DNA of 64,000 nt from Apophysomyces variabilis (lineage: Eukaryota > Mucoromycota > Mucoromycetes > Mucorales > Mucoraceae): positions 585,337-649,336 of the forward strand of contig MZZL01000391.1 of the NCBI GenBank assembly GCA_002749535.1, read 5' to 3'. The notes under the pieces were generated by a model. The model was given only the letters and a program-made list of their open reading frames with translations, was not told the origin of the DNA and searched no databases. This document shows positions 3,151-64,000 of the stretch, piece by piece; within the stretch, counting starts at the first letter, position 1; the number at the start of each line of letters is the position of its first letter. Made by a program: the position numbers and the translations under genes.

Positions 3151-6100
3151 ATGATTAGTGAAGATTCGTCGGAAATCATGAATTGCGACGTAAAAGACTC
3201 CATACCACACAAGGAATCTGTACAAACCATAACGGAAAAGTCGTCGATCGCTTTTACAACCGTAAATCCATCATTCGTTATGAATCAACAAGGTAAAAGA
3301 CAGATCGCCAATGTTCCATGTATCTAAAACAAGATAATTAGATTCTAAGAACCAGTTTAACCTAACCGAGCATGACGTATCGCCCATTCACAAACGATCG
3401 GGAGATTTCGAGCAGCTAGAAATAGGAGCCGACGCCACATTCGCTCTTGCTGAATATATGAAAGATCTGGTTCAGGACCAAAGGCTTGAAGAACATGAAC
3501 ATCAAAAGCTAGGGTTGGTTTGGAAGAATTTAACAGTCGAGGTACGAAAAGTACTTTGATCCCATCGAGCCGTCCTCGTGTTGATCCATGTTTGCTTTTC
3601 TTGCAGGGCCTCGGTGCCGGTGCCCACACTATACCCACGGTTTTAACCAAAATAACGGATCTGCTACCGTTTCTCGGAAAATCCAAAGCCAAGAAGACGA
3701 TCCTCAACAAGTTGAATGGCTTCTGTAAAGAAGGTGAAATGCTCCTTGTTTTGGGACGTCCAGGAGCTGGATGCACCAGCCTTCTCAAAGTGTTGTCAGA
3801 TCTGAGAGAATCCTTTCTCAGCATTGATGGGGAAGTTTGCTATGTAGCCTCTGAATTGGATAAAGACCTGTTTCCCGAAGATTACCGTGGTAGAGTTGTC
3901 TATCATGATGAGGAAGATCATCATTACCCGACACTGACGACCAAGGAAACCCTTCAGCTAGCCCTCCGCACCAAAATCCGCGGAAGTGCAAGGGAACCCA
4001 AAGAAGTTACGCAAGCTAGAGCGCTAGAACTCCTTGTCAAGACGGTCGGGCTCACCAACCAGACGGATACAACTGTCGGTGACGCTTTCCTGCGCGGCCT
4101 ATCGGGAGGAGAGCGAAAACGTCTGTCAATTGCTGAGCTAATGATAACGCAAAGTGCGATTGCTTGTTGGGATTGTCCTACGCGTGGATTGGACTCTACT
4201 TCAGCCCTGGCTGTTATTCACTCTTTAAGAACAATGACAGACATCCTGGAGCAGACAACGATTGTGACCTTGTATCAGGCTTCCGATGCTATGTTTTCCC
4301 TTTTTGACAAGGTGTTGATCCTGGATGATGGTCATTGTATGTATTTCGGTCCCGCTTTTCAGGCAAAACATTACTTTGAATCCTTGGGGTTCTACTGTCC
4401 TCCTAGGAAATCAATTCCAGACTTCTTAACCGGTATCGCTAATCCAATCGAGCGTCAAATAGCACCACGGTTTTCTGGCTCTGTTCCCCAAACAGCTGAT
4501 CAATTTGAATCATGCTATTTGCGTTCCGTCATAGGAAAGGATATGATGGATCAGTTAGAAGCATACCAAAACAGCAGGTCACAAAACAAGGATTCGGCCC
4601 ATAAATCACGGAGATACTTGTTACCACCTTCTCCCTACGTGGTCTCATTTTATCAACAAGTCCGGTCTCTCACCATCCGTCAGTTCCATTTGCTTATTCA
4701 AGACAAGTACGCTTTGATCGCACGCTATGGCAGTATCTTCATCCAGGGATTGATTATGGGTTCCTGCTTTTACAGTATCCCTCTTGATGCTACGGGCGCT
4801 TACGGACGAGCAGGCGCCATCTTTTTCACAGTGCTCTTTAATACCCTAGTCTCTCAAGCTGAACTTATCCGATTCCTTATGGGTCGCCCAGTCCTGGAGA
4901 AACACAAACATTTCGCACTATATAGACCCTCAGCCTTTTATATTGCGCAGGTCCTCATGGATATCCCGTTTGCGCTTGCTCAAGGTAGTTAATACAATTT
5001 TCACCCAAGTTTCTTATTCTAACCGTGCTTATAAAGCTGCTTTGTTTTCTCTGTGCACTTATTTCTTGATGGGGTTCGATTTAACAGCAGCCAAGTTTTT
5101 TACGTTCCTTATTACTATCTTTTTCCTCGTCATGACAATGAACGGTTTCTTTCGTTTCTTTGGTGCTATTGCAACTACTTTCTTCGTGGCCACACAACTT
5201 TCGAGCGTCATAGTCAATGTTTTGTTACCTTACGCTGGCTTCGCTGTAAGTTCTCCCCTCTATACCAGACAAAGTGATTCACATATCTTATTTGTATTCT
5301 CAAGATACATGTATCATCCATGCATCCTTGGTTAAAATGGTAGCTCGTTATGACAACAAGAAAACGTTCGTTCACCGTTCTGCATATTAGGCTATACTGG
5401 ATCAACCCACTGGCTTATGTTTACAAGACTTTATTGACAAACGAGATGCATGGTCAACGCTATTCATGCGAAGGGCAAGGAAATTCCGTTCCGTTTGGTC
5501 CTGGTAGGTTTCACATCCTTCTGTGTATCCTGAATCTAACGATTCATTACACAGATTATAACGATTGGAGATACAAAGTTTGCACAATGACAGGTCGGCA
5601 AGAGGGAGAAACCTTTGTCGAAGGAGACAACTATCTGTTGCAGGAGCTTAGTTATAGTCCATGGCAAATCTGGATCCCCGATTTCATAGTCGTCGTTGCT
5701 TTCTTTCTGCTCTTTGCGCTCTTAACAGCACTGACAATGGAATGGAAAGGTGCTTCTAACATGGGTTCACAAACCAAGCTCTATCTTCCCGGAAAGGCAC
5801 CTCAATCAAGCACACACCTGGAATCCGAAGAGAAAACGCAGAGAGTGGCGGACGTGGAAAAAATAGCAACAGGAACCACATTTAGCTGGCAACATCTCAA
5901 CTACACCGTACCAACCAAGGGAGGTTCTGTCCAGTTACTTCGAAATGTTGGAGGTATCATTAAACCTGGTCACCTAACTGCTCTGATGGGAGCGTCTGGC
6001 GCAGGCAAAACCACATTGCTCGATGTTCTAGCCCGCCGCAAGACAATCGGCAAAGTGACCGGACGGGTCTATTTAAACGGAGAGGCACTGGCCCACGATT

Positions 6101-7866
6101 TTGAACGAACGACGGGTTATTGCGAACAACTCGATGTACACCAACCTGCAGTGACAGTGCGCGAGGCGCTTCAGTTCTCAGCCTATCTTCGACAGCCTTC
6201 GGAGGTTCCCAGAGAGGAGAAAGACGCGTACGTCGAAAAGGTCATACACCTTTTGGAAATGGAGGCTATTGCGGATGCCCAAATTGGCCTTGTCGAGAGT
6301 GGCTTTGGTATCTCTGTTGAAGAACGCAAACGACTCACTATCGGCGTTGAATTGGTGGCCAAACCTCGGTTACTTTTCTTGGATGAGCCCACATCTGGTC
6401 TGGACGCTCAGAGCTCATTTAATATTATTCGTTTTATCCGTAAACTCGCCAATGCCGGTTGGCCAGTCTTGTGTACCATACATCAACCTTCTGCTATCTT
6501 GTTTGAACACTTTGACCACCTGTTACTTCTTGCTAACGGCGGACAAGTCGCTTATCATGGGGAAATTGGCCAAGATGCGCGCACCGTCATGGAATATTTC
6601 CAATCGCACGGTGCGCCAAAATGTGCCCCGGACCTGAATCCAGCTGAATATATTTTGAGCTTGACTGGCACAAATCCTAAGGATGGACGCATGGACAATG
6701 GCATTGATATCACGGACTGGGCAGCTATTTGGGCTCGTTCCATGGAAGCTAAAACACTTCAGGATGAACTTGAAGAAATCCATCTTCGGTCGAGCGCCAT
6801 TATCCATCAACAACAGCGAAAGGAAGTATTAACCTATGCGACGTCTTTCTGGACTCAGTTCTATCTAGTCCATTGTCGGATGGTGCTGGCATACTGGCGG
6901 TCTCCGGATTATAACGTTGGAAGATTCCTGAACATCATGGTCGGCTCTTTGCTCAATGGTTTTACCTATTGGAAGATGACGGACGCTTATGCAGACATTC
7001 GAAATCGATTGTTTGCTCTCTTTGCCACGTTTCTTATGGCAAACACATTGATTATTCTTGCACAACCTAAGTTTATGATGGAACGTCAATATTTCCGAAG
7101 GGAGCATGCGTCCCGTTATTATGGATGGATTCCTTTTGCGCTGTCAGTTATCCTAGTAGAGTTACCCTATATACTATTCATGGCTGCGTTCTTCATGTTT
7201 GGTTCATACTGGACAGCTGGCCTAACCAATACGTCTACCGCTGTTGGGTATTTTTATTGCATCACCATCTTCTTTGTCTTCTGGGCTGTTACTCTTGGCT
7301 TTGTGATTGCTTCTGTGGCAGAGAATCCAACCGTGGCAGCGGTGCTAAATCCTTTGATCATTATGCTACTTGCCTTATTTGCTGGTATGTTTCAATCAAT
7401 CAAGACTATGCCAAAATTTTGGAGTTCCTGGTTTTACTGGCTAAGTAAGTCCTTTATCCTCCATATCTGCTTTCTCCTTTTTCATTCACTGTTAACACGT
7501 GGGAACATAGATCCATTCCATTATTATATTGAAGGTCTGGCTGTAAACGAGTTGGGGAATATGGTAGTGCAATGCCTAGATCAAGAACTCATACGATTTA
7601 CACCGCCACCTAATGTCACCTGTGCTGCTTACCTCGGGGAGTTCTTTGCATCCGGTGCGTCGGGCTATCTGTCAAACCCCAATGCCGTGCAACCGGAACA
7701 GTGTGGCTATTGTCCTTACCGAACCGGGTCTGAGATGTATAGTATTACGTATGAATGGGACTATGCGAACCGATGGCGTAATGTAGCCATCATAGCATGT
7801 ATTGGTGTGTTTAATGTTATTATTTTCATGCTCCTTGTCTTTTGGAAACGCAAGGACAGACGTTGA
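3151..7866 (+). CDS. Full-size PDR/ABCG-type ABC transporter
   Basis: Pleiotropic drug resistance pump of the plasma membrane, exporting xenobiotics or lipids using ATP (family knowledge). Predicted exons are 3151-3292, 3342-3541, 3607-4984, 5037-5245, 5305-5339, 5391-5503, 5555-7444 and 7511-7866, giving about 1440 residues, normal for the family. The order is NBD1, membrane domain, NBD2, membrane domain. NBD1 has Walker A GRPGAGCTS (about residue 164), signature LSGGERKR (about 279) and the degenerate Walker B CWDCPTRGLDS. NBD2 has canonical Walker A GASGAGKTT (about 838) and Walker B LLFLDEPTSGLD (about 966), but the signature is the divergent VEERKRLTIG. This asymmetry is typical of fungal PDR pumps. 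The membrane part has the PDR-specific YWINPLAY and DPFHYYIEGL-type segments; the latter is rebuilt as NPFHYYIEGL across the last intron. One exon is only 35 nt. The start is uncertain: ATG at 3151 or 3178. Confidence 0.93.
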
Positions 7867-46423: not shown

Positions 46424-46862
46424 ACTGCTAAAAGAATTACGTCACACATCACCATTCCCCCGGTGCGACCCGGTAAGGCTAGACACAAAGCAGTCAAAGC
46501 GATATTGGATTTGGCATGTGACTTTCAACCAGTTGAATACGTTCCAAATTTGAGACATATTTGCTCGAGACAGCTCAATTACAGGGTGAATGTACAGACA
46601 AGAGAAAAGCATGCTAACTACGACGACAGACGACAATGATAGAACAAATTTAGCCAGAGGTGGGATTTGATTTGAGACACAGGTAGGGAAGCGACCACGG
46701 GAATAGCTGATTTTGAATAACACGGCAGAGAGCGACGTTGAGACTGCGGTAAATACTCTTGCGACGGAACGAATCGAATCAGTGATTCTTGCATTGAGAA
46801 TCGTGCCGTTTAACTGCACCGGCAGGGACCGAAGCCCCCAACCACTTGAATACTATTTATAG
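46424..46862 (+). other. Coding-like fragments of unknown family
   Basis: Two plus-strand open stretches have the composition of real protein: 46424-46639 (72 codons, containing ILDLACDFQPVEYVPNLRHI) and 46707-46862 (52 codons, containing DVETAVNTLATERIESVILA). An intron from about 46659 (GTGGGA) to 46706 (AATAG) could separate exons, but I found no in-phase join. A 125-codon minus-strand frame covers the same bases, so even the strand is uncertain. It may be a decayed gene belonging to the mobile element next to it. Confidence 0.3.
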
Positions 46863-47075
46863 CATAACAATTTGCATTGCTTAGAGAAATAATTTGCGTC
46901 AACTGGAAATGATATAGATAAAGGGCTTGTGAGAACATTGCTTCCCCAAGATAATAATTTCTTACTCACCCAGATGATATGCACAAGAAAAGGTTGGGCA
47001 AGGTGAAAAGACCAGTCGTTAGAAAAATGTGAATTTAAAGCATTGAACTTACCGTTCGAGACGTATAAATCTAAA

Positions 47076-47090
47076 TCCTCGTTACGAGGA
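47076..47090. repeat. Perfect hairpin downstream of Fanzor A
   Basis: TCCTCG-TTA-CGAGGA forms a 6-bp stem with a 3-nt loop, 48 nt beyond the Fanzor A stop codon (gene on minus strand). It could belong to a 3'UTR, a guide-RNA scaffold or a transposon end, or be chance. Confidence 0.35.
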
Positions 47091-47137
47091 AACCACATTC
47101 GTAGTGGCGATATCATTTTTAGCCGGACGGCAGAATT

Positions 47138-49356
47138 CTATGGGGCGACCTTGTCCGCGCCAAACCGAGTTTGCAATGTAGAACATGTTTTTTCCGAGTT
47201 AATGTCCCGTTGCCATAGTGTACGGCAGTGTTTGCAAACTACTACACCATGGTGGGACACAGAATCGGATGTGGTGACATTCTCCAGCCCTCTCTGAAGG
47301 CAGCTGTTGCACACCTATAGATAAACCATGAGGGTACATACGAAGCAAAAGACAACAAACCTGAGACGTGTAAAATTCATCGATTGTTGTTGCAATCAAT
47401 TCCCCTCTCCTTTCTCTTCTCTTTAGCATTTTCCAACAGGTGTTGACTAACGCAGCACGCTTGCCCTTTCTTGACGCATGTCCACTCGCACCAAACATTG
47501 CTGATCCGAATACAATTAATGATATTTTTTTGCTTGCTTGAAATGCCTTTGGATGCCATTTCTTTGTGCTTGGGTGCGGTTTATTTTGCGTTGATCTGAT
47601 TCCAGACTCTTGTGGCCTAGGTTAGAAGATTTCGTTAATATCACTAATTTCAGTACTTTGCACTTAGTCTCTGACCCTGATCGCCATTTCAGCTTCTCTT
47701 GTTCTCGCCGTTTCAGAGTCTTTCTCTTCTTCTTTCGTCTATTCTTTCGAGTCTTTCTTCGCCGCTGCTTGCAGTACTTTTTTCCACCGTTGACTAACAC
47801 ATTAACGAGCTCTTCACGAGCACGTTGTACTCCTTGGTAATTGTGGAAACGCTTCTCAGCCATGCCGGGCCCGTAAAAAGCTGTCAATACTGGAAAATTC
47901 TGGGCGAAGCACTCCACCAACTGATGATGTTGCTCTGATGATGCTGTTTTACAACTCTCTAAACCAGTCTCGATACGAGTGATACCCGCCGCATCCTTCT
48001 GTTTTTCGAGTTGCTTCGCTCTCCGCGTACAGCCAGTCATGGCATAATACTCTTTTGTCGACACACGGCGTAGTTGATGCCTCTGTGAGCCACTACCGTC
48101 TGCAGCTGTGTATATTTGATTCAAACCCGGATCCACGGCCCACGGTTCGAACCACTGCTCGACTTCATCAACGGTAAAGTCCTCGAGGTCAATTTCCGTT
48201 GCCAGCAACCTTTCCTTTTGTTTTCTTGCGAAAACTAGATTTACTGCAAATCCATCAGAAAGAATTCTGCATGCGAAACGATGATTTCCATTCCGGTAAA
48301 ATCTCCCAAGCTGTACGTATATATTAACACAGAGTGAGTGTTTGAAATTAAAGGTAACTACCGCTATTTCCCATACTTATTAAATGCGAAACGAGTAAGA
48401 TCAAGCGCTTCAAAAAATACTCGTGGATATTCGCTCGGCTGTGTTGGTTCTCGAATGGATAACAGACTTGCCAAAAGTTTGGCGTTTATTGAAATAAAAC
48501 GCCACTTGTAACTTGGCTTTGGTGAAATCGAAAAAAGACGAGGTAGAGTTGTTTCACTAGAACTTTTTTCGGAAGCAGCAACGATCTTATGCTCTTCTTC
48601 ATAGGAAGACAGGATGTATTTTAACGTTGGAATATACGCGCCAGGAGATGCCGATATGGCTTGCTGCGTTGCAGGCTTAGGCGTCAGTGCCTCTAAATCA
48701 TCACAAATCTTATCGACAATAGCCACTAAAGACAAGTCCGGTTCAATCAAATTAGGCCATTGAGGGGATCCACCAGCGATGCGTTCGAAGGCCTATTCCG
48801 ATGCAATATTTTGTATCTCAGTTTTATTCATACTCTATATATGATGAAACTTAGTTCAGATATATCAAAACACGATACATACCGGAAACGCTACTGACGA
48901 CTTATGTTCAACGAATGAACGCACCCGAGTTCCGAAATTTTCGACTATATTGTTTGAATAGCATGTGGCCAGCAATATACAAGCTTCTGACAATACATCA
49001 GATGATCTTACTTGTGTGTTGGGCGCTTGTTGCATCTGAGGGTGCTTGTCACGAAATTCTCTCCACGAGCCGCTAAGATCTGTTGGCATTTTATCGTTTT
49101 TAGTTGTCATTGACTTGTTGAGCACAAGTTGCATGACCGAACAGAAGAAATTTTGAGTGAAACGGATGAGTGGGATTACTTGTTGATCAAGTATATACTG
49201 GTTGACAAACAGTTGAGTTCTTTCAATCACGTCTCTCTGTATATTGTGAAAGCTCTTGAACTTTTCTCTGAAGCTGATCTCGATGTGCTTCAATGACAAC
49301 GGAATGTAGAGGAGCTTTTCGAGTGAACGTTTCGAGACCTTTTCCGAGTTGATCTT
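47138..49356 (-). CDS. Fanzor (eukaryotic TnpB-like RNA-guided nuclease), copy A
   Basis: Fanzor proteins are eukaryotic relatives of TnpB that cut DNA guided by an RNA from their own locus and travel in transposons (family knowledge).
Minus-strand exons with good splice sites are about 49356-48883, 48792 to about 48372, 48310-47664, 47616-47361 and 47314-47138.
Landmarks in order: a helical N-terminal domain; the conserved FACRILSDGFAVN; RuvC-I in WAVDPGLNQIYTAADG; a helical region with GMAEKRFHNYQGV; a Lys/Arg-rich stretch; RuvC-II region LIVFGSAMFGASGH; IDEFYTSQVCNSC and VVVCKHC, which form the zinc ribbon; and RuvC-III in WQRDINSEK.
The join near 48372-48310 lacks a proper GT donor, and the 5' end is interrupted, so the copy may be partly decayed. 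A degenerate Tc1-like transposase lies 0.9 kb upstream on the opposite strand. Confidence 0.83.
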
Positions 49357-49366
49357 CTAATATCTC

Positions 49367-49650
49367 CTAGGTCGACTTAGTGTGTCGCAGGCAACTCTTC
49401 GCTCGGGTACTTCTGTGTTCAGTGGAACCACATGCAGGACAATGGATTTGCTATAAAGGTCGTATTACTGAACTTGCTTGCTTACTCGCTCGACTCGTTT
49501 TCTCCGCTTTTTTGAGCGCCACACTCTGAACTTCTGGCTGGCGCGTCCGCTTAGTACCAGCTATTGGGCATACTTTAAGCGTGATACCTGTATAGCAATG
49601 TGATGCCCCCAGAGTCCGCAAGAGTTACAGTGAGACTGATTTGCTGAGAT
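49367..49650 (-). pseudogene. Disrupted 5' portion of Fanzor A with zinc knuckle
   Basis: Upstream of the first clean Fanzor exon, one frame encodes a basic segment (KRTRQPEVQSVALKKAEK) and a zinc-knuckle-like CPACGSTEHRS...C, as expected for the N-terminus of such proteins. Two TAG codons break it (49453-49451 and 49369-49367). The GTAAG donor just before the first TAG leaves the wrong phase for the zinc-knuckle frame. Beyond the second TAG the same frame still looks coding (LETFTRKAPLHSVV), whereas the clean exon uses another frame. Either introns are mis-called here or the 5' end has decayed by nonsense and frameshift changes. Confidence 0.5.
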
Positions 49651-50202
49651 TGGTTGCTGTCAGTTAACTTTCTTTTATGAGGATGTGTACGTAACTTTTT
49701 TTAACCTTTTCTCCTCTTGTAGCTGATTCTGTAATTCCATATCAGCGGCTTTTTTTCCCCTTTTTCTTCTGGATGTAGCCTTTGTCTGTCAAGGCGGTCA
49801 GAGACAATATGAAAATAGACCAGATAAGCGAACGCATATAAAACGCAAAATCATCCATGATGAATTCAACTGTAAAAGAAGAAATAACAAGGAAGAAAAG
49901 ATGATAACGCTCAGGTGTACTCACATTAAACCATTTCTTTTTTTTCTTGTAATGACAACATTTATCTTACAGGACAGTGTAAACTAACAGTCGCTCAAAG
50001 ACAGGTTTCACATAAACTTAGCAGATTATCATTAACCTTACCCAAGGCTAAAGTCAGATAAGGAACGATTTGCCCATCCACACGTTCATGATAGTTGTCT
50101 GTATAATACCGCGCTTTGCATTGAAAGTTCTGGATCATGTTCATATATTATTTTCATCCATCATTTTTGCTACAGTACGTTACAATTTGTTGAATGTGCA
50201 AT
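49651..50202. other. Gap between Fanzor A and the transposase remnant
   Basis: About 550 bp, AT-rich, with a few short frames only (for example a hydrophobic 60-codon minus-strand frame at 49742-49924). If Fanzor A has its own transposon end, it should lie here. I could not identify inverted repeats by eye. Confidence 0.3.
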
Positions 50203-51400
50203 CGCAACACTTCTATAAGCGTGCTTGCAAGCGACTCCCAACAAAATTTTCGAAGGGCAATTAAAGTTCGAATTCCCAAGAATAAACGCGGTGCATACCG
50301 GAATTATACTGACGAACAGTTAGCTATATGGCTTAATCTAGTAACGTATGAAAAGAAAATCTGCAGCAGCTGCATGCAGAGAAGCGGGCATTAAAGAAGG
50401 AACGGCCCAGAATTACGTTAAGTTGTACTATCAGAGCCAGAGAGAGGGCACTCATGCAACACTTTCACTTGCAAAATAGAGAGGTCCGAAGCCGCGCATA
50501 CGCAGCACTTGATCAAATATATTGATAAAAATCCCACGGCTATATTAAACGATATCACCGAGGATTTATGTAATGCATTTGATGGCCTGAGCATAACTAC
50601 ATCTGCAGTTCATAAGCATCTGGTTGCTAAATGTGCTATTACACTCAAAAGAGCTGAAAAACTTCCTGCTGCAAGAAACACAGAGAGTGATTGAATTGCG
50701 AAGACAAAAAGTACTTGAATGGGAAACCATGGGAGATGTGGACTTCAAAGCGAACTGCGTTTTCATAGATGAGGCTGGCTTTGACTTGCATCTTGTGCGT
50801 AACTATGGGCGCTCTAAGAAAAGGTAGCTGGTAAAGCAGGTTGTAGTCACCAGAAGAGGTGTATTTATCACGATTCTCTGTGCCATTTTCTCAGCTGGCG
50901 TCATTGACATATATTTAAAGCGACCTGAAGAGATCATGGCGAGAAAGAGAAAGCTAGATGAAAGCAGATCTATGAATATTAATGCTAGAATTGGAACTTG
51001 TACAGAACACTGTATGATGTACCGTGATATCTTGATGAAAGTGTATATAAACGGCGCTTTCGGATACGCTGTTGGTTTCCTGAGTCTGGCATTACGTTGA
51101 GCTTAACCTCCAAAAATGCAGCCTTTTTTCGGGTGCACCAGTTAGCAAAGTCTCCAGGGATGCTTTTGGTATCTATTACATGCTTTGCAACAACTGAACG
51201 GTACTGACATGCTCTAACAAATCATGTACGACCCTGTTTTGGAATGGAGACTTTATGGCTGCATCCAACATTTTCCACATTTTCTTGCACATTAGAGATT
51301 ATGCCAATCGACGACCAGCTTCCTTTACCAGATCGGCAATACATAAATAGTATTCAGTTGGAGAATATTATGTCATGACTTGTTAGAAGGTACTATAGAA
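50203..51400 (+). pseudogene. Degenerate Tc1/mariner-IS630 family transposase
   Basis: A plus-strand transposase relic readable only by switching frames several times. Pieces in order: basic start then RGAYRNYTDEQLAIWLNLVT; a helix-turn-helix with AACREAGIKEGTAQNYVKLY; RGPKPRIRST followed by a stop; IDKNPTAILNDITEDL; VHKHLVAKCAITLKRAEKL; and the catalytic-core start NCVFIDEAGFDLHLVRNYG with the first Asp of the DDE/D triad. After another stop come RRGVFITILCAIFSAG and a late fragment.
At least three frameshifts and several stops make it inactive. The family assignment follows from FIDEAGF and the two N-terminal HTH-like segments. Terminal inverted repeats were not found by eye. Confidence 0.8.
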
Positions 51401-63445: not shown

Positions 63446-64000
63446 CTAAATACTGTGCGTTGTCTTTGGCCTACGGAACGCGCCTGGGCGTTCATTGTTA
63501 TGGTCTCTCATATACAGAAATACGTGTAAAATATTTGTTGCAGCCATTTTGTCTCGATTCCAGAACATCACCGTACATGATTTTTTCTGACATGTCGGTA
63601 CAGCATGTATAGTCGAGCCTTTGTGGCCTTGTGCATCATTTTCTTCGTTCGCTTTCTGCAGATCTCAAGTCTGACATGCTGGACAGATTTGGGATGTGAG
63701 GTATTCGTCTATGAGAAATACAAATGTCGGAGCCTTTCCCATCCATGGTCAACCATAAGCCCATGAAATAACTCTATAGCCTACCTTTCGTCTCCTCGCT
63801 TGTTGCTGTAGTTCCTTGAAAACCGCCTTGGTAGGTGCAGCCTTTTTGCCTTTCATACTACCAGAAAACCCTCCATTTCCATAGGCGACAATGATCGGTT
63901 TGCTCTTCTCGTCAGATCGATCGTTCGGAGAAAGAGGAACCCATTTCGAATCATCTCGCTTAGGTTCCTTTTGCTTACTGCTTTGATCATACTTCTTGCT
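63446..64000 (-). pseudogene. Fanzor copy B, 3' half, with in-frame TGA
   Basis: The gene enters from the right edge. Exon 64000-63785 joins in phase 0 to 63733-63446.
The first exon carries the RuvC-II-region segment KPIIVAYGNGGFSGSMKGKK; the second starts APTFVFLIDEYLTSQICPAC, the entry to the zinc ribbon. An in-frame TGA (63667-63665) follows immediately. Beyond it the same frame continues into clear Fanzor sequence, with a second Cys pair (TCQKKSC) and RuvC-III in FWNRDKMAATNI, then MRDHNNERPGAF, ending at a TAG at 63448-63446. CGA to TGA (Arg to stop) would be a single C-to-T change.
It differs strongly from copy A in every motif, so it is not a recent duplicate. The N-terminal half lies outside the window. 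Confidence 0.85.

Follow-up and report, generated by a model that had tools for sequence, protein, structure and literature searches.

Fanzor is a known eukaryotic family of RNA-guided DNA-cutting proteins. In Spizellomyces punctatus, the Fanzor1 protein SpuFz1 is carried by SPu-1, an element with terminal inverted repeats and putative TA duplications that needs no transposase within it, and the genome contains 42 Fanzor loci and 134 ghost loci (PMC3627910, PMC10432273). The target-adjacent motif (TAM) of SpuFz1 is CATA (PMC10432273). High Fanzor copy numbers have been noted (PMC10711439). Fanzor1 of Mucor circinelloides, Rhizopus oryzae, and Phycomyces blakesleeanus was described in 2013, as was Fanzor1 in TA-flanked Mariner elements with inverted repeats, both with and without a transposase (PMC3627910). 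PpFz1 of Parasitella parasitica is a fungal Fanzor1 of solved structure, with an FRI insertion, the TAM ATN, and exonuclease-tested RNA-guided cutting in vitro (PMC11423790). In the open-licence full-text literature we found nothing joining Fanzor with Mucoromycota by name.

We analyzed a 64,000-nucleotide stretch of the Apophysomyces variabilis genome (hereafter the window), in which a Fanzor locus occupies the following positions.

46851 to 50330, minus strand: Fanzor transposon copy with a complete right end and no left end, 93-95% identical at the nucleotide level to the copies at L039-L043 (L044 matches in two pieces)
47082 to 49583, minus strand: Fanzor1 gene remnant of about five coding exons, from exon borders compared in 19 copies and the PF07282 match
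To 48883; 48834-48377; 48310-47664; 47616-47361; 47314-47082, minus strand: exons 1 to 5 of the remnant
49367 to 49369, minus strand: premature stop in exon 1, where the relatives shown have no stop
48793 to 48795, minus strand: premature stop in exon 2, a sense codon in 18 of 18 other aligned copies
46851 to 47081, minus strand: conserved non-coding right end, a presumed guide-RNA scaffold, from subfamily A-B identity compared with four-fold sites
46851 to 46900, minus strand: right terminal inverted repeat with its terminal TA; in L040, the corresponding 50 bp are 76-80% identical to inverted left ends
46831 to 46850, minus strand: flanking DNA that would serve as guide if the RNA extends past the right end in the way published for other Fanzors, assigned by position only
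50273 to 51021, plus strand: DDE_3 (Tc1/mariner-type) transposase remnant adjoining the truncated left end, 89.8% identical to L077

L-numbers denote loci of the same genome (38.7 Mb, 126 contigs). The frame at 5344-7863 of the window encodes a PDR-type ABC transporter whose closest match is from Apophysomyces (72%); the remaining listed hits, mucoralean in nearly all cases where an organism is named, have 59-67%, and this one protein points to a mucoralean host near Apophysomyces. The locus most likely represents a left-truncated and decayed member of a multi-copy family of inverted-repeat transposons flanked by TA; the element carries Fanzor1, probably together with a guide-RNA gene at its right end, and would be retained by RNA-guided cutting. 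It shares with SPu-1 the presence of Fanzor1 in an inverted-repeat element, the TA at the ends, and the many copies per genome. SPu-1 is about 2.1 kb and encodes a 633-aa protein in a single ORF, whereas the gene here has five or more exons and encodes at least 766 aa in a compact element of 3.8 kb. The TA flanks and inverted repeats are also those of the Mariner elements with Fanzor1; the MuDR-like Fanzor1 elements of Rhizopus, Phycomyces, and Mucor come from the same fungal order as the window, but have 9-bp duplications instead of TA (PMC3627910). The window copy is a new, broken member of a published family and, taken by itself, an ordinary result.

The preliminary description had named the gene a Fanzor and proposed a profile search. 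That search against Pfam matched PF07282 (OrfB/TNB zinc ribbon) at 29.2 bits, with a cut-off of 26.3, and bore the name out. The query for the Pfam, protein-database, own-genome, and PDB searches was an earlier exon join in which introns 1 and 2 were misplaced. At E <= 0.001 the sole database match was the Rhizopus microsporus hypothetical protein RMATCC62417_11569 (34% identity over 63% of the window protein, E 1.1e-69), a protein of 499 aa that stops before the zinc ribbon, unlike the gene here. A structure model (AlphaFold; this protein plus three window exons) had a mean pLDDT of 44.9, too poor to use. The Fanzor1 of the mucoralean Parasitella was absent from the PDB sequence matches up to E 10, both for the window protein and for the relative L039. 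The nearest solved chain for both was Guillardia theta Fanzor1 (PDB 9cer, 9ces, 9cet), at 8e-4 for the window protein and 2.6e-6 for L039. Guillardia theta is an alga, and its Fanzor1 has the TAM TTAA (TTAAN in PMC10432273). SpuFz1 matched L039 weakly (phmmer 0.028), in three collinear blocks of which none was significant alone.

We further compared the motifs with published definitions. The window encodes the DPG and the Glu before CxxC described in PMC10711439 (AVDPGLN; E-FYTSQV-CNSC), and L039 combines DPG at RuvC-I with a Glu placed six residues ahead of CNSC, the C4 ribbon, and RDIN. The pattern D-X(125,275)-[TS][TS]XX-C4-X(5,50)-RD (PMC3627910) matches L039, which is open; in the window copy its components occur, but they are divided among exons and separated by frame breaks. 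The regular expression of PMC10711439, which was written to find TnpBs and defines related TnpBs, not Fanzor1, gave no match with its strict spacing (DPG to Glu about 234 residues and CxxC to CxxC 21, versus the allowed 120-160 and 12-18), and its widened form matched L039. Sequence comparison supports the membership of the window gene in Fanzor1.

All motifs named in the preliminary description were recovered on the minus strand, in the order given there and distributed among exons: AVDPGLNQIY is encoded in exon 47664-48310, LIVFGSAMFG and IDEFYTSQ in exon 47361-47616, and CNSC, CKHC, and RDIN in the exon beginning at 47314. LIVFGSAMFG had been read as the RuvC-II region, but it does not hold the catalytic Glu; in Fanzors that residue stands six positions ahead of the first CxxC (PMC10711439), which places it in IDEFYTSQ. 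The span proposed earlier, 47138 to 49650, does hold the gene, but its limits required revision: in the relatives the frame continues beyond 47138 as far as the TAA at 47082-47084, and the element itself extends to 46851. No start codon was found, and the 5' limit of 49583 is approximate. Four introns lie at identical places across the 19 aligned copies of subfamily A, which include the window copy; the borders of introns 1 and 2 (for intron 2, the acceptor) were set by comparison with relatives. In subfamily A the coding frame closes at the TAA within TCCTCG-TAA-CGAGGA, a perfect hairpin. Subfamily B has a different sequence at this site, CTGTTACC-TTA-GGTAGCAG, which, read by eye, is also able to pair throughout.

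Own-genome searches and comparison of the element ends supported the earlier suggestion of a mobile element or its ruins, revealing a multi-copy family with common ends, inverted repeats, and flanking TA. The window protein had at least 162 exon matches (best E 1.1e-159; 68 of 595 candidates scored). Zinc-ribbon matches with E up to 0.001, from several Fanzor families, numbered at least 73 (150 of 164 candidates scored). In the window and in the six fetched copies (L039-L044) the right end reads CAATAAACAG-TA, exactly or with small variations, and borders on DNA that differs from copy to copy; in five of the six fetched copies the left end reads TA-CAGTTTATTGAATTATATTTTGCGCC, again exactly or nearly so. 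Across the genome, left-end matches numbered at least 40 and right-end matches at least 41. Of 15 Fanzor-type left ends, 13 had TA, as did all 25 complete right ends, 3 of the 28 Fanzor loci being excluded for an incomplete right end. The elements at L039 and L075 span 3.8 kb and 5.4 kb, respectively. No left repeat of the window copy was found within the window, where matching to relatives stops at 50330; three of 11 joined flanks, searched in the same genome, gave no full-length match to an empty site; and no DDE transposase sharing the repeats of the Fanzor element was found in the elements read. The element is apparently a non-autonomous, TA-flanked inverted-repeat DNA transposon.

Two transposases were considered, one as a part of the element and one as its mobiliser, and neither was accepted. 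The first, the remnant at 50273-51021, is related to L077, whose frame matches Pfam DDE_3 at 3.6e-18. L077 has inverted repeats of its own (33 bp, 94%), so that of the remnant only the first 58 bp, which 12 further copies of the Fanzor element share, count as ancestral to the family. The transposase of L078 was a candidate mobiliser on account of its position next to a matching left end, on the inner side; it belongs to a DDE_3 element with its own inverted repeats, nested immediately inside a left end of the T-type, the class of related repeats to which no Fanzor was assigned.

We then examined the bases flanking the elements. Among the 40 left ends (30 + 10 loci), 15 were of the Fanzor (GCGCC) type, and two of these lacking TA were excluded (L056, with CA after TC, and L068). 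Twelve of the 13 scorable left ends belong to elements with Fanzor exons among the matches listed, the remaining one being L085. Directly before the left TA stood C 11 times and G twice; one position further out, T 11 times and C twice; the pair TC preceded TA in 9 of the 13. Of the TA sites of the window, taken as background, 19% have C in front and 6% have TC. The chance of 11 of 13 C is 7e-7 and that of 9 of 13 TC is 7e-9, figures that are not formal tests because the motif was chosen after looking. The base following the right TA was G in 7, A in 7, C in 7, and T in 4 of the 25 loci with a complete end; L013 and L026 have one flank in common, and so 24 of these flanks are independent. From this left-flank bias, TCTA is a candidate TAM. 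It has the expected form, two bases and TA, since CATA is the TAM of SpuFz1 in an element with putative TA duplications; it differs from the TTAA of Guillardia theta.

The C before the left TA may instead reflect the target preference of a transposase, with no relation to a TAM. The T-type elements are also uneven at this position (G 9, C 4, A 3; n = 16, with one flank common to L072 and L073), which makes such a preference a serious rival. However, only one side is biased: C stands in front of the left TA in 11 of 13 cases and G behind the right TA in just 7 of 25 (Fisher p 0.0016), and a symmetric preference would appear on both sides. We give the transposase preference somewhat less than an even chance.

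To the right of the stop codon, the DNA of the family is better conserved than its protein. Between 3 copies of subfamily A (L040, L042, L010) and 6 of subfamily B, identity was 32% at four-fold sites, 45-50% in introns, and 61-65% in exons. In blocks, it was 74% at 47137-47040, about half of which is coding, and 88% and 86% in the non-coding blocks 47039-46940 and 46939-46851, respectively. Scanning 3 A and 4 B copies in steps of 50-nt windows gave 66% at the stop codon, a peak of 95% at 46976-47025, and 81-83% towards the element end. The 127-nt core of the right end occurs at no fewer than 40 genome places (40 of 47 candidates scored), 32 of these 40 beside a Fanzor exon among the exon matches listed and 8 with none listed nearby. 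The right-end RNAs of published Fanzor1s include the terminal repeat and the target duplication (PMC10711439), and conservation of the right end is therefore what a guide-RNA scaffold predicts. A guide RNA is likely encoded there. Of the proposal that the locus may encode both a nuclease and its guide RNA, the guide-RNA part is made likely by conservation, and a working nuclease is not supported for this copy, whose gene is broken.

An alternative is that the right end is kept by transposase binding, or by exchange of ends between the subfamilies, with no guide RNA and with Fanzor as a passenger. The left repeat, too, hardly differs between subfamilies (98% identity over 58-60 bp in L060 and L063), and the right-end stems lack covariation: of the cells in the three main predicted stems, 97.6% are paired, none of the 20 pairs changes on both sides, and shuffles equal them in both respects. 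Over the whole consensus, 1 of 38 pairs changes on both sides. However, identity peaks about 125-175 bp inside the end and declines to 81-83% in the terminal repeat itself, and it climbs stepwise from the stop codon with no single jump. Transposase binding or exchange of ends therefore appears improbable, and a guide-RNA gene is the preferred explanation of the conserved right end. The folding energy of one right-end copy was no better than that of shuffles (z 0.26), no Rfam family matched the right end, and the right-end model R1, run over the window, matched the right end itself and nothing else. The 20 bases made up of the terminal TA and 18 flank bases of the window copy had no second exact match in the genome and one match with 2 mismatches. 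Within the conserved right end (46965-47060, minus strand) we observed GTAAGT and, downstream, CTAAC, which resemble splice signals; a deletion in L025 begins at the GTAAGT.

The gene in the window is decayed. Relative to its relatives it has the two premature stops and frame breaks in exons 1, 3, and 5, and because the copy is broken, the working nuclease gene proposed earlier is unsupported at this locus. Among the translated copies of subfamily A, the window included, one of 18 is open, that of L039 over 766 residues, and none of the six translated subfamily B copies is open; these counts leave aside L020, L028, L030, and L044, which were extracted, and some copies may be less broken than apparent because their borders were projected from the window. 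dN/dS was 0.51 within subfamily A (120 pairs; window and L009 excluded), 0.51 within subfamily B (15 pairs), and 0.64 between the window and subfamily A (16 pairs). The family protein is under mild constraint, and the window copy is under less. Frameshifts are a common assembly error, but it is very improbable that assembly errors conceal an intact gene here, given two separate stops where relatives read through, frame breaks in three exons, a lost left end, and an open reading in just 1 of 18 close copies.

The role of Fanzors for their transposons is unsettled. By analogy with published Fanzors and TnpB, we infer for the intact relatives a cycle of transcription, RNA binding, cutting, and retention. 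An RNA would comprise a scaffold from the last ~230 nt of the element and a guide from the flanking DNA; the Fanzor protein would bind it and cut DNA bearing the guide sequence beside a TCTA-like motif, that is, the site emptied by excision; and repair after cutting would restore the element. A bolder reading, which we regard as tentative and rather doubtful, is that RNA-guided cutting shapes the sites at which copies survive, insertions persisting where the left flank offers TCTA to the guide RNA of the element itself and so leaving a one-sided footprint, and that copies with dead protein and conserved RNA, the window copy among them, supply guides in trans, from at least 40 RNA loci, to proteins of other copies. 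With dozens of mostly broken copies, a slowly changing non-coding right end, and a one-sided flank bias, the retention idea could be tested from sequence and one TAM assay. Two features deserve further attention, the closer conservation of the presumed RNA than of the protein and the flank bias on one side.

Other repeats were observed in and around these elements. The right flanks of L013 and L026 agree over nearly 300 bp (by eye) but their left flanks do not, a pattern that would fit movement of the element together with some adjacent DNA. L057, L058, L059, L062, L066, L067, and L069 form a larger T-type family with related end repeats and no Fanzor assigned; its interior of 1.4-1.5 kb, which is common with L075, has no long open frame. 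L043 is located at the margin of a repeat that has no fewer than 38 other genome matches, and several T-type left flanks carry sequence related to this right-flank repeat. The T-type end in L074 is ~0.9 kb from a frame resembling enolase.

Within the window, a repeat just past the Fanzor right end (46722-46839) is 93% identical to DNA beside the L077 transposase element, outside the repeats of the latter. Two further Fanzor remnants were detected. The first (63484-63721, minus strand) is a C-terminal remnant of another Fanzor1 family with an internal stop and a zinc ribbon at 25.2 bits, just under the Pfam cut-off. The second (51198-51350, plus strand) has 72% DNA identity, over 51201-51318, to 63601-63484; it lies downstream of the transposase remnant in the same direction, and both may therefore derive from one mariner-Fanzor element.
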